A DNA stretch of 64,000 nt from Desulfomonilaceae bacterium (lineage in GTDB: Bacteria; Desulfobacterota; Desulfomonilia; Desulfomonilales; Desulfomonilaceae): positions 1-64,000 of the forward strand of contig JAVHLK010000009.1 of NCBI GenBank assembly GCA_031082285.1. Reading direction: 5' to 3'. Below are positions 10,335-57,414 of this stretch, one piece after another. The notes beneath the pieces are model-generated. The model made no database searches and was not told the DNA's origin. It saw nothing but the letters and a program-made list of their open reading frames with translations. The position numbers and the translations under genes were made by a program. Position 1 is the stretch's first letter. Every line of letters starts with the position of its first letter.

Positions 10335-10590
10335 ATGCGGTCGCACATTCCCGTATACGCTCGGTAGCGTCCCGTCCCGCGCGGAACGCGGGACCCCTAC
10401 CAAACCGGCACAGAGACGCAGAAGATGACGGGCACGGAGGCCCGTCCCACGAGAGTGGTTTGAGACACCGCACTTTCTTTCGTAGCCCGGGCCTCCGTGC
10501 CCGGAAAGCTCTGGTTCCAGATATCAGACTCGGTAACGGGAGCAGAATGTGTCACCGGACTTACGCCATGAAGCATCAGCGTCTGTGACA
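10335..10590. repeat. Dispersed repeat R1, copy 1
   Basis: About 255 bp sharing long stretches with copies near 31421-31612 and 40352-40850 (cores ctttcttcgtagcccgggcc-like and gagcagaatgtgtcac). It holds a perfect 16-bp inverted repeat: CGGGCACGGAGGCCCG (10429-10444) and CGGGCCTCCGTGCCCG (10488-10503). Its left (gcacattc) and right (gaatgtgt) ends are also weakly inverted. It lies between livK and livH, so it may shape readthrough of the operon. Confidence 0.75.
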
Positions 10591-31420: not shown

Positions 31421-31612
31421 CTACCAGACCGGCATGGAGGTGCAGGCGATGACCGGCATCCCGCGCAGAACGCGGCAGTCCCACAAGAGTGGTTTGAGGC
31501 TCCGCACTTTCTTTCGTAGCCCGGGCCTCCGTGCCCGGAGTGCTCCGGTTCCGGTTATCGGGCTGGGTAACGGGAGCAGAATGTGTCACAGAATCTACGC
31601 CATGAAACACTT
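31421..31612. repeat. Dispersed repeat R1, copy 2
   Basis: It shares with copies 1 and 3 the core cacaagagtggtttgagg, the segment cgtagcccgggcctccgtgc, and the end gagcagaatgtgtcac followed by tacgccatgaaacac. Its right end runs directly into the stop codon of the selenoprotein gene at 31611. The bases before it (31366-31420) hold a separate GC hairpin (gtaggggcacccc/gggtgccc). Confidence 0.75.
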
Positions 31613-32183
31613 AGTCGATCAGACGGTACGGATGGGCCTTCTTGGTCCATTCACTGTCGGGATACTCGGCATTGAGTTTGTCGTACACCTCCCGCAACGG
31701 CTTGGGATTGTTCGTGTGCTTGTAGGTTGCGACCCCGCGATAGAAGATCGCTTCGGGTGCCGCTTCACTCCCGGAATGGTCTTCAAGGAGCTTATCGAAC
31801 GCGGAAATGGCACGGTCGAACCGGCCCGCCTCGAAGTGCGCCTTCCCGATCCCTAGTTGAAGAGCGGGAATCAATTCGTCAGTAGCAAGGAACCCCACCG
31901 ATCGATGACTCTCTTGACCGTCGGTGTCCAACACAATAATGGTCGGAGTCCATTTTATTTTGTAATTCTCGGCGTGAGTCTTGTCGTCGAATTGGAGTCT
32001 CAACGGAATCAGGTTGGCGTTAATATACCCGGAGACCTTTTCGTCGGGATACGTAACCGCATCCATCTGTTGACAGCCGATTCAACCGGGGTTGTAAAAA
32101 TCGAGCAATACCTCTCTGCCTTCGGATTTCGCTCTTGCAAGAGCCTTGTCCATGTCCGTTTCCCATTCAATTTTGGTTGCCAT
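31611..32183 (-). CDS. Thioredoxin-like selenoprotein (UxxC) with TPR-like tail
   Basis: 190 aa if the in-frame TGA at 32082-32084 is read as selenocysteine. AGGAGG precedes ATG 32183; the frame then reads EVLLDFYNPG-U-IGCQQMDAV, so Sec34 occupies the first position of a thioredoxin CxxC (here UIGC). The rest of the fold continues without a break (TPTIIVLD with the cis-Pro region), then a TPR-like helical tail (AHFEAGRFDRAISAF). A 7-bp hairpin starts 18 nt after the UGA. A conventional reading gives only a 33-residue stub and a fragment from an internal ATG at 32066. Likely role: thiol redox enzyme, probably cytoplasmic, since no signal peptide is seen. The stop codon touches repeat R1. Confidence 0.85.
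32047..32064 (-). promoter_or_regulatory. Candidate bacterial SECIS hairpin
   Basis: Read on the minus strand, GGATGCG-GTTA-CGTATCC forms a 7-bp stem (one G-U pair) with the loop GUUA. It starts 18 nt after the UGA and the loop begins with G, which matches the known bacterial SECIS layout. No folding program was run. Confidence 0.65.
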
Positions 32184-37914: not shown

Positions 37915-38160
37915 TGCACACACCTCCGGCAGGCTTCACCATCTATTCTTTCTGCTTGAGTGTAGATCAGATCGCCCCGTTAAGCCAGATTTTTTTGACG
38001 TGAGGGAGCCGATTTCCCGGGGGTGACGGCACCACCGGCATGCTGGGAATTAAACATTTGGGCGCGGTTCCAGTCTAATGTGTAAGGAGACGATTGGGGA
38101 ATCTTCAACGTGGACGGAAACCGATCGCGATCTCCTGACCGAAGAATGGGAGGACGAGTC

Positions 38161-39414
38161 ATGAGAAAAGCATTTTACCGCGGTCTGTTCATCGCGACGG
38201 TAGTCACGGCCTGTGTCGTATGGTCCTTGGGTGCGGAGGCCGCAAACGTCCAGTACGAGGCCGTGGGACCGATTGCAGGAACGGTAGCGGCACCCGACAG
38301 TGCGCGCGGAGCGGTTGTAAGGGCGGGACCTTCGCAGTCGGACCGCGCGCTCGGAGTATTGAGAAACGGAACGAGAGTGAAAAACTACTTGGAGTTCGCA
38401 AACGGTTGGGTGAGAATTCGCACGCCTTTTCACGGAGCCTGGGTCCAGGCCTCTTACATTGTTCCACAGAGCGCTCCCGCCGTCGTGACCGGCGTGGACC
38501 AGCCGGAGAACTGTCTGAGAGTGCGGGAAGGTCCCGGTTCTGAATTCGAGGTGGTCGGGTGTCTCGCTCACGGTGAGACGCTTACGCTCACCGGCTTATG
38601 GTCTGAGAACAATTGGGCCGAGATATCGCATCCCGTCAGCGGCTGGGTTCATGCAGCGCAGATCGGCACGGGCCTGGATCCGTCATATCCCACGCGCACT
38701 TCACCCGTACGGGAAGTCGTGGTCGAAAGCTATCCCACCCTGTACCCGGAAGACTTGATTGTGGACCCGTATTTCTACGACTACAATTACGCCTACCCTC
38801 TGGGCGCGTACATCTACGGCGCATACCCCTGGTACTACATTGGAAAGAGGTTCCACAAGAGGTTCTACACGAATAGATTCCATGGTAAGGACTATTGGCG
38901 CTACGGGAAACCGCGTCATTGGGACAGACGCGCCTGGAGAGTGAACAGAGATCGGAGACCCGTCATCGGTGCGGGCACGCGGGGCGGCAGCCTGCGCGTA
39001 GGCTCGAGACGAGGCGGCAGCGCTCTGGGAGTCGACAGACGAGCAATGACCTCTGCAGTCAGAGGAAGCAATCGCGGCTTCCGCTACGGCGGAGGTAGAG
39101 GCAGTGCAATCAACCTCGGTGCCGCATCCAGAGGCGGCAGCTTCCGTATGGGCGGTTCCAGAGGCCGAAGCGCGGCCTTCGGTTCAGCCCCCAGAGGCGG
39201 CAGCTTCCGTATGGGTGGCTCAAGAGGCGGTAGCTTCCGCATCGGCGGTGGTAGAGTTGGCGGAATGAGCCTCGGTGGGGCGTCCAGAGGCGGCGGCTTC
39301 CGTATCGGCGGCGGAGGGTCCCGCGGTGGATTCTCCGGGCGGATCGGAGGCGGCAGAGGCGGAATGGGAGGATTCTCCCGCGGTGGCGGAGGCCGTGGAG
39401 GCTTCAGACGCTAA
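38161..39414 (+). CDS. Exported SH3 protein with Gly/Arg/Ser-rich tail
   Basis: 417-aa protein. A signal peptide (LFIATVVTACVVWSLGAEA) is followed by two bacterial SH3-like domains (about 45-110 and 115-175, with VRAGPSQSD and VREGPGSEF). Then a Tyr-rich stretch (YDYNYAYPLGAYIYGAYPWYY, ~residues 210-235), a basic WRYGKPRHWDRR segment, and a ~150-residue tail of SRGGSFRMGG-type repeats follow. GGGAGG precedes ATG 38161. Bacterial SH3 domains often bind peptidoglycan; the tail resembles RGG low-complexity segments and could bind polyanions or self-associate, which is inference. Confidence 0.7.
   Translation: MRKAFYRGLFIATVVTACVVWSLGAEAANVQYEAVGPIAGTVAAPDSARGAVVRAGPSQSDRALGVLRNGTRVKNYLEFANGWVRIRTPFHGAWVQASYIVPQSAPAVVTGVDQPENCLRVREGPGSEFEVVGCLAHGETLTLTGLWSENNWAEISHPVSGWVHAAQIGTGLDPSYPTRTSPVREVVVESYPTLYPEDLIVDPYFYDYNYAYPLGAYIYGAYPWYYIGKRFHKRFYTNRFHGKDYWRYGKPRHWDRRAWRVNRDRRPVIGAGTRGGSLRVGSRRGGSALGVDRRAMTSAVRGSNRGFRYGGGRGSAINLGAASRGGSFRMGGSRGRSAAFGSAPRGGSFRMGGSRGGSFRIGGGRVGGMSLGGASRGGGFRIGGGGSRGGFSGRIGGGRGGMGGFSRGGGGRGGFRR
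39129..39316 (+). repeat. In-gene tandem repeats encoding the SRGGSF tail
   Basis: Units of the type agaggcggcagcttccgtat recur about every 30-75 bp (39130, 39194, and shortened forms after). They encode the Gly/Arg/Ser repeats of the SH3 protein and are likely to vary in number. Confidence 0.6.
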
Positions 39415-39554: not shown

Positions 39555-39645
39555 CCTACCAATAAGGAAATGAAGCAGCGAGAATCCGGAGAAAATCAAC
39601 CGGCAATGCATGTCGGATCTCCGAGATTCGATTGAGGCGCCCCGA

Positions 39646-40254
39646 ATGAAGATGCGAATATTTTCCGATTTTGTGTGACCGTACTGCTATATCGGCAAGG
39701 GACTTGTCGAAAAGCTCAAGAGAGAGTTCTCCATCCAAGACGAGTGGGTCAGCTATGAACTTCGCCCGGAGACGCCTCCGGAGGGAATTCCCCTAACCCG
39801 ACGATTCTCCCCCGAAGACCTGCACCGGATCTATGAGAACCTCCGCCGAACGGGTGAACCTTTGGGCATAATTTTCGGTGAGGTGAAGGTCACGTCCAAT
39901 TCCCGTTCCGCGTTGCAGGCGGTCGAATTCGCTCGGGACCGAGGGCATTTTCATTCGTTTCACAATCGGGTCTTTTACGCGTATTTCACTGATACCCGTG
40001 ACATCGGAAACGTGGAGGTTCTGCTCGATTTGGCCCAAGAGGACGGCCTCGACCCGGCCGAACTACAGCGCGCGCTTGCCGAGGGGACGTACCTTTCGAG
40101 GCTGTTTCATGCCCGGCGCGACGCAGACGCACTTGGAGTGACCGCGGTCCCGACTTTTGTTGTGGATGGAACGCACAAGATAGTGGGAGCACCGTCGCCG
40201 GATCTCTTCAGGAAGCGCCTGGCCGAGGTTCAAAGCCAAGTCCGACCGGGATGA
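39646..40254 (+). CDS. FrnE/DsbA-like selenoprotein (UPYC)
   Basis: 202 aa if the in-frame TGA at 39676-39678 is read as selenocysteine. The reading starts at ATG 39646 (GAGG 8 nt upstream; ATG 39652 is an alternative) and gives MRIFSDFV-U-PYCYIGKGL, the exact active-site context of FrnE-type DsbA oxidoreductases, where CPYC is usual. The rest follows the family: long helical insert, then GVTAVPTFVVDG with the cis-Pro before Thr, and a C-terminal helix. A hairpin starts 15 nt after the UGA. Without Sec readthrough only the C-terminal two thirds would be called, from 39862. No signal peptide, so cytoplasmic thiol-disulfide chemistry is likely. Confidence 0.87.
39693..39709 (+). promoter_or_regulatory. 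Candidate bacterial SECIS hairpin
   Basis: CGGCAAG-GGA-CTTGTCG forms a 7-bp stem (one G-U pair) with a loop that starts with G. It begins 15 nt after the UGA at 39676-39678, within the distance known for bacterial SECIS elements. Confidence 0.65.
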
Positions 40255-40351: not shown

Positions 40352-40850
40352 CACAAATACGGTCGCATTCCCTTGAGCGCTCGGTCGCGTCCCGTCTCGC
40401 GTTCTGCGCGGGATGCCGGGCGCTCCGGGAGCAGAAACCGGTACAGAGGCGCAGAAGATAACGGGCAGAGACGCCCGTCCCACAAGAGTGGTTTGACGCT
40501 CCGTACTTTCTTTCGTAGCCCGGGCCTCCGGAAATTGTCTCAAAACTCAAATGCAAGCGCAAGTCGTGGCACGCCGCGGTGTAGGGGCGGGTTTTACACC
40601 CGCCCGATTCTGGGTGCTCGATTGTGGGCGGGTATAAAACCCGCCCCTACAGAGGTCTGCAGCAAACGTCCGCAACGAGCCGGCAACCCGTCCCGCATTG
40701 CGTGACGAAAATGAATCCACATCGTGCGACGATTTGTCTCCATGCCGGAGTTTTGAGACAGTTTCTCCGTGCCCGGAATGCTCTGGTTCCGTTGCTCAGA
40801 CTCGGTAACGGCAGTAGAATGTGTCACCGTATGTACGCGATAAACCACTA
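40352..40850. repeat. Dispersed repeat R1, copy 3, interrupted by a MITE
   Basis: The R1 sequence runs from about 40352 to 40530 and resumes at 40766-40850 after a 235-bp insertion. Removing the insertion and one tccg restores cgggcctccgtgcccggaat as in copies 1 and 2. Its right end runs into the stop codon of the gene at 40848. Confidence 0.8.
40531..40765. mobile_element. MITE-like element, copy A
   Basis: 235-bp non-coding element with terminal inverted repeats GAAAttGTCTCAAAACTC and its inverse at the right end (GAGTTTTGAGACagTTTC). It is flanked by an exact 4-bp duplication TCCG (40527-40530 and 40766-40769). The interior holds a palindrome, gtaggggcgggttttacacc ... acccgcccctac (about 40582-40652). 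An inverted copy lies at 57124-57359, about 90% identical by eye. It has no transposase and would depend on one elsewhere. Confidence 0.85.
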
Positions 40851-56874: not shown

Positions 56875-57123
56875 AGCCGGGAACGCGGATGCCCGGCGTC
56901 GGTCGCGTGGTCACATGAGCCCATCGGTGTGGCCGGACCACACCTCAGAGCCCGTTCTCTCGGTTTGCTGCCCATGGCCTCAGACACAAGACTCCTCACT
57001 TTCAGGCTTCCGACTTGGCCTGACCTGGGGAAGGAAAAATTTCTCTTTCTTCGTGTCTTGTGGTGAGATCCGGTCTTCTTTATGTTCTATGAACCTTTGT
57101 GGTGAACCCAGGGCGGACACAGA

Positions 57124-57359
57124 GAAACTGTCTCAAAACTCCGGCATGGAGACAAATCGTAGCACGATGCGGATTCAATTTCGTTACGCAATGCACGACG
57201 GGTTGCCTGCTCGTCGCGGACGTTTGCTGCAGACCTGTGTAGGGGCGGGTTTTACACCCGCCCGCAATCGAGCACCCAGAATCGGGCGGGTATGAAACCC
57301 GCCCCTATCACCGCGACGTGCCACGACTTGGGCGTATATTTGAGTTTTGAGACAATTTC
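57124..57359. mobile_element. MITE-like element, copy B (inverted)
   Basis: 236-bp element in reverse orientation to copy A at 40531-40765, with the same ends GAAACTGTCTCAAAACTC and gagttttgagacaATTTC. It is flanked by the exact 4-bp duplication CAGA (57120-57123 and 57360-57363). The central palindrome (tgtaggggcgggttttacac ... acccgcccctat) is kept. It sits between the convergent uvrA and acyl-CoA ligase genes; the rest of 56875-57414 shows no gene. Confidence 0.85.
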
Positions 57360-57414
57360 CAGAGGTCCGCCCCTACAAGCATCTTCTTATGTCCTGACGG
57401 TTCGACGTTTCTTT

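Follow-up and report, generated by a model that had tools for sequence, protein, structure and literature searches.

DsbA-like selenoproteins carrying a UxxC motif were described in a 2005 study of the Sargasso Sea, which reported nine sequences and assigned them to COG2761 (PMC1088965). In 2006, DsbA-like selenoproteins were listed for Anaeromyxobacter, Desulfovibrio and Desulfotomaculum, deltaproteobacterial hosts thus being already included (PMC1794560), and the Global Ocean Sampling analysis of 2008 counted 63 sequences of the UxxC type DsbA 1 (pfam01323) (PMC2398784). A 2016 paper gives 45 genes in 41 organisms, if the columns of its table stand for organisms and genes (PMC5029168), and a 2026 inventory names the group DsbA-like protein form 1 (PF01323, UxxC), with NIP15863.1 as one example of a member (PMC13188914). 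Two Cys-type proteins give an idea of function. The FrnE protein of Deinococcus radiodurans has been described as a disulfide reductase of the cytoplasm that also acts as an isomerase and reduces insulin (PMC8945050), and a Listeria protein of the DsbA family reduces GSSG via its CXXC motif and protects against diamide (PMC10715225). Literature searches for FrnE with selenoprotein returned no paper that, judged by title, was evidently on a bacterial FrnE selenoprotein, and those for Desulfomonile with selenoprotein and for selenocysteine with DsbA-like and Desulfobacterota found none.

The gene analyzed here lies in a window of 64,000 nucleotides, the first stretch of contig JAVHLK010000009.1 of a Desulfomonilaceae bacterium (assembly GCA_031082285.1). 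Its coding sequence (39646..40254, + strand, terminal stop TGA at 40252-40254 included) yields 202 residues when an in-frame TGA at 39676..39678 is translated as selenocysteine (Sec11), and the protein then starts with MKMRIFSDFV-U-PYCYIGKGLVEK... The TGA occupies the first position of a C-P-Y-C motif; Sec11 and Cys14 (39685..39687), the predicted resolving Cys of the U-P-Y-C pair, are the sole Sec or Cys residues in the translation. The initial annotation had read the TGA, within SDFV-U-PYCYIG, as lying at the CPYC site of FrnE proteins, a reading borne out by the homologs described below, and had rightly noted that the frame stays open to 40254 and contains the cis-Pro segment AVPTFVV. It had also called the gene hidden, which is fair: a standard listing of open reading frames shows only 39862-40254 of the frame. 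Pro169 (40150..40152), the expected cis-Pro of the thioredoxin fold (AVPTF), is invariant with L052, the one locus returned by a genome-contig scan for homologs. A probable ribosome-binding site, GAGG, can be read at 39634..39637 (+ strand), 8 nt 5' of the ATG at 39646, and this start matches the starts of three homologs (L023, L024 and L052). The Pfam family PF01323 (DSBA) covers residues 5-193 and scores 102.3 bits (cut-off 25.6; E=3.7e-29). The top solved-structure relatives, 5cp1 and 5cnw (E=3.9e-23, residues 2-201), are FrnE entries, which we take to be those of D. radiodurans, and we likewise assume that COG2761 is the FrnE group. The next match among solved structures was the DsbA-like SCO1869 (3gl5). 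An AlphaFold2 model computed from an alignment of only two sequences had a mean pLDDT of 53.5 and a pTM of 0.47 and was set aside. The product of the upstream gene (38110-39414) ends in a long tail of repeats rich in Gly, Arg and Ser (D2 family). Directly downstream are intergenic repeats (40435-40847), which belong to a dispersed set of about 75-195 nt in length, 63-92% alike, with further copies at 10402-10575 and 31436-31609 and an inverted one at 57114-57369.

Matches to the protein were found in 35 genomes among 148 relatives and, phylum-wide, in 107 genomes among 395. From these searches we assembled 89 loci in 89 genomes (30 loci from the 148-relative search, 19 new ones from the 395-genome search and 40 stretches fetched by hand), and at the codon for residue 11 there are 72 TGA, 16 Cys and 1 Ser. 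This proportion covers the closer homologs and not every DsbA-like protein of the phylum, because weaker and second matches were left out, among them five with one TGA each (G075:C26, G387:C272, G352:C59, G265:C3 and G174:C96); many stop-free matches were left out as well, for instance those in G280 and G405, extra copies in G159, G186, G255, G296, G315 and G334, and partial C-terminal matches. A Cys codon follows three residues after the TGA in all 72 TGA forms. Additional TGAs in the aligned core occur in five loci, always at its very end, where they are the terminal stops. The five nearest TGA-bearing relatives are 51-61% identical to the window protein over nearly its full length, and two close relatives (L029 and L081) have Cys at the position of residue 11. 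The VPTF segment is present in 52 of the 89 homologs, most of the remainder having other xP motifs. A phage search gave four records and a plasmid search 750; the phage records and the ten plasmid records listed are all below 60% identity.

Downstream of the TGA, and separated from it by 13 nt, is a SECIS-type hairpin (39692..39710, + strand) with a 7-bp stem (arms 39692-39698 and 39704-39710) and a 5-nt loop (39699-39703, GGGAC). The stem length had been given correctly beforehand, but not its distance from the TGA, which had been put at 15 nt. RNAfold closes one extra pair in the window hairpin (8 bp, 3-nt loop), and RNAalifold recovered exactly the same helix from the first 26 TGA forms. 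In all 72 TGA forms, 92.3% of the 504 pair cells are kept, with 97 cells changed on both sides, and the covariation score of 0.508 (0.203 for shuffled alignments) was reached by none of 500 shuffles. The number of double-changed pairs was reached by 26 of 500 shuffles, and the number of pair types is ordinary (127 of 500 shuffles as high). The register of the hairpin was the best of 600 slid placements. By contrast, the same columns in the 17 non-TGA forms are paired in 45.4% of 119 cells, compared to 45.8% after shuffling, and RNAalifold found no consensus structure in these forms. To obtain an expected level of pairing, we redrew the synonymous codons of each gene and compared the result with the observed pairs. 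Of the 72 TGA forms, 71 lie above their expectation (on average 6.46 versus 4.47 pairs; 45 of 72 at p<0.05), but only 6 of the 17 non-TGA forms do (3.18 versus 3.35; none at p<0.05). Selection therefore acts on the RNA, and only where the UGA is used. The window gene on its own is mildly unusual by this test (7 pairs versus 4.87 expected, p=0.036). Folding energy alone proved a weak test, with a mean z of -1.0 over 26 TGA forms (24 of them negative), and within the window gene the hairpin does not stand out in stability, 11 of 30 other stretches folding at least as well. Bacterial SECIS elements follow a loop rule, a small apical loop bearing a G (PMC1088965), and a G is present at alignment column 25, in the apical loop, in 24 of the first 26 TGA forms and in at least 90% of the 72. 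Six TGA forms keep no more than 5 of the 7 pairs in the shared register (L034, L042, L103, L117, L136 and L137); L034 and L042 keep 3 each, but when folded individually both form a longer hairpin that is displaced by roughly one base. A search of Rfam families gave no match at the hairpin.

The machinery for selenocysteine insertion is present in the same genome (5.6 Mb in 314 contigs, rated 99.9% complete). We detected selA (598.2 bits), selB (393.9 bits, over the cut-off) and selD (366.4 bits), the latter with an in-frame TGA of its own within SGUAAKMGPGD, as well as a tRNA-Sec (RF01852, 71.4 bits) to which ARAGORN assigns the anticodon TCA (UCA in the RNA). The RF01852 score is unspecific by itself, because the other match over the cut-off in this genome (47.4 bits) is a tRNA-Leu according to ARAGORN. 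The initial annotation had named two findings that would speak against a selenoprotein, a genome lacking selB or selC and a related genome with unrelated sequence before the TGA; the genome has both selB and tRNA-Sec, and the relatives keep the sequence on both sides of the TGA.

These results leave little room for readings in which the codon does not specify selenocysteine. The TGA could be a plain nonsense mutation or a sequencing error that turns a Cys-type FrnE gene into a pseudogene, an explanation that gains some appeal from an assembly in 314 contigs, of which the window is one, and from the fact that Cys-type FrnE-like genes are common, L029 and L081 among the close relatives included. 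Its probability is negligible, as it is already refuted by a TGA that is conserved in many of the phylum's families: an error or a decaying gene does not fit 72 of 89 loci sharing this TGA codon with the other in-frame core TGAs terminal only, the nearly full-length identity to the five nearest TGA-bearing relatives, or a covarying hairpin specific to the TGA forms. Decoding of the UGA as some other residue, such as Trp, through a general code change or leaky decoding is also very improbable. That a frame opens up under a changed code is, taken alone, no evidence for selenocysteine. Yet TGA terminates this gene and 40 of the 89 homologs (a script count that may be off by a few, since five alignments overran the terminal TGA), so there can be no general reassignment. 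Furthermore, the genome has a tRNA-Sec (UCA) and the whole set of sel genes, and the position alternates with Cys only, except for the single Ser. Selenocysteine at residue 11 is thus predicted with high confidence from the conserved UGA, the covarying hairpin confined to TGA forms and the full machinery.

Less remote, though still unlikely, is a selenoprotein with a different chemistry, such as that of an HCCA-isomerase-like, kappa-GST-like or peroxide- or metal-handling enzyme. One of the solved-structure matches, 3fz5 (E=8e-5), is a possible 2-hydroxychromene-2-carboxylate isomerase, and the window protein has no CX4C tail, a pair that in D. radiodurans FrnE aids regeneration (PMC8945050). 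Nor does operon context fix the substrate: when we clustered the ORFs around 20 loci (up to 12.6 kb) and the window by blastp, every cluster was confined to at most 3 of these 21 loci, and the neighborhood supports no particular partner or substrate. However, the FrnE and DSBA families score far better than the isomerase, and the resolving Cys in every TGA form points to a redox pair rather than to the single-nucleophile chemistry of an isomerase of that type. We consider it very probable that the product of the gene is a selenoprotein whose active site reads Sec-Pro-Tyr-Cys, most likely a cytoplasmic thiol/disulfide reductase or isomerase. SelB bound to the downstream hairpin would deliver Sec-tRNA-Sec to UGA codon 11, and translation would run past it to give a 202-residue, single-domain protein of the DsbA/FrnE type. 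With U11 and C14 as the only such residues, the likely cycle would start with the attack of Sec11 on a substrate disulfide, Cys14 would resolve it by forming a selenenylsulfide with Sec11, and that bond would be reduced by the thioredoxin system or another such donor of thiols. By analogy with the characterized relatives, a role as thiol/disulfide reductase or isomerase is the most likely, and the exact reaction is predicted with moderate confidence. A cytoplasmic location is inferred because no leader precedes Sec11, and we saw no room for a signal peptide before this residue.

How the Sec and Cys forms relate to the machinery can be followed across genomes. The selA gene is over the cut-off in 71 of the 72 genomes with a TGA form versus 14 of the 17 without (Fisher p=0.02), an association that gives modest support, given how common selA is in general (131 of 148 relatives). 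The best single case linking lost machinery to the Cys form is G074, which has neither selA nor selB over the cut-off and no tRNA-Sec, its best RF01852 match being a tRNA-Ser; its locus (L029) has Cys at the residue 11 position and 5 of 7 pairs, below the synonymous expectation of 5.39. Two genomes of the same family (G110 and G142) have the machinery and the Sec form. Cys is used even where the machinery persists, however, as in L081 (53% identity), a Cys form in a genome, G326, that keeps selA and selB over the cut-off. An unexplained result runs counter to the pattern of machinery and TGA: G233, rated 100% complete, has a TGA form (L120; G233:C37, 525-584) with a perfect hairpin (7/7), but selA is sub-threshold (18.7 bits) and no selB is over the cut-off. 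The GC content of contig C37 (0.553-0.554; six other stretches, 0.539-0.568) neither shows nor excludes contamination as the reason. On a quick maximum-likelihood tree with SH-aLRT support and midpoint root, parsimony requires at least 7 changes of the Sec/Cys state, 5 of them forced by well-supported branches, and the tree does not give their direction. A tentative and rather speculative history would have the Sec form old and prevailing in the phylum, with Cys arising several times, usually with the machinery kept (G326 and the Cys-bearing genomes of f29 and f37) and once with its loss (G074), and G233 perhaps holding a stranded UGA gene whose hairpin is intact after loss of selA and selB. 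The 72 Sec and 17 non-Sec forms are in any case a clean natural experiment on the upkeep of a SECIS element under coding constraint and its decay after the loss of selenocysteine.

The window contains a second candidate (31611-32183, minus strand), a thioredoxin-like gene whose product has a TPR-like tail; its in-frame TGA lies within NPGUIGCQQM. Among the 148 relatives, the best 34 matches listed carry an in-frame TGA, one of them together with a TAA, and the next match has none; several genomes have more than one copy. This, too, looks like a real selenoprotein gene. That two selenoproteins 7 kb apart make chance stop codons unlikely, as had been proposed, is a weak argument alone, and what lends it substance is that the second gene is also conserved. 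The same genome holds another thioredoxin-like homolog of this gene (G000:C42:2545-3066), which has two in-frame TGAs.

Gene calling that treats TGA as a stop would truncate or miss the FrnE/DsbA-like gene in relatives bearing the TGA form, and the reading given here corrects that annotation. Compared to the FrnE protein of D. radiodurans, the window protein matches over its full length, has the CPxC-type site, CP(W/F/Y)C in the FrnE subfamily, at the same place and consists of a single DsbA-like domain; it differs in having Sec for the first Cys, in its length (202 versus 260 residues) and in the absence of the C-terminal CX4C pair. Some FrnE proteins also lack this pair (PMC8945050), so its absence does not exclude membership in the subfamily. 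The DsbA 1 proteins of the Global Ocean Sampling share the Pfam family and motif and differ in their marine metagenome origin, as far as their published description allows a comparison (PMC2398784). With the DsbA-like selenoprotein form 1, the window gene shares PF01323 above the cut-off, the UxxC motif and a SECIS-type hairpin directly after the UGA, and a comparison by description rather than by sequence alignment revealed no difference in kind. The window organism is not among the hosts named in the portions of the three reports that we consulted (PMC1088965, PMC1794560 and PMC13188914). As the testable features of the DsbA-like UxxC kind were all found, we file the gene as a further member rather than as a discovery: such selenoproteins have been known since 2005, and the window gene is a well-supported addition to them.
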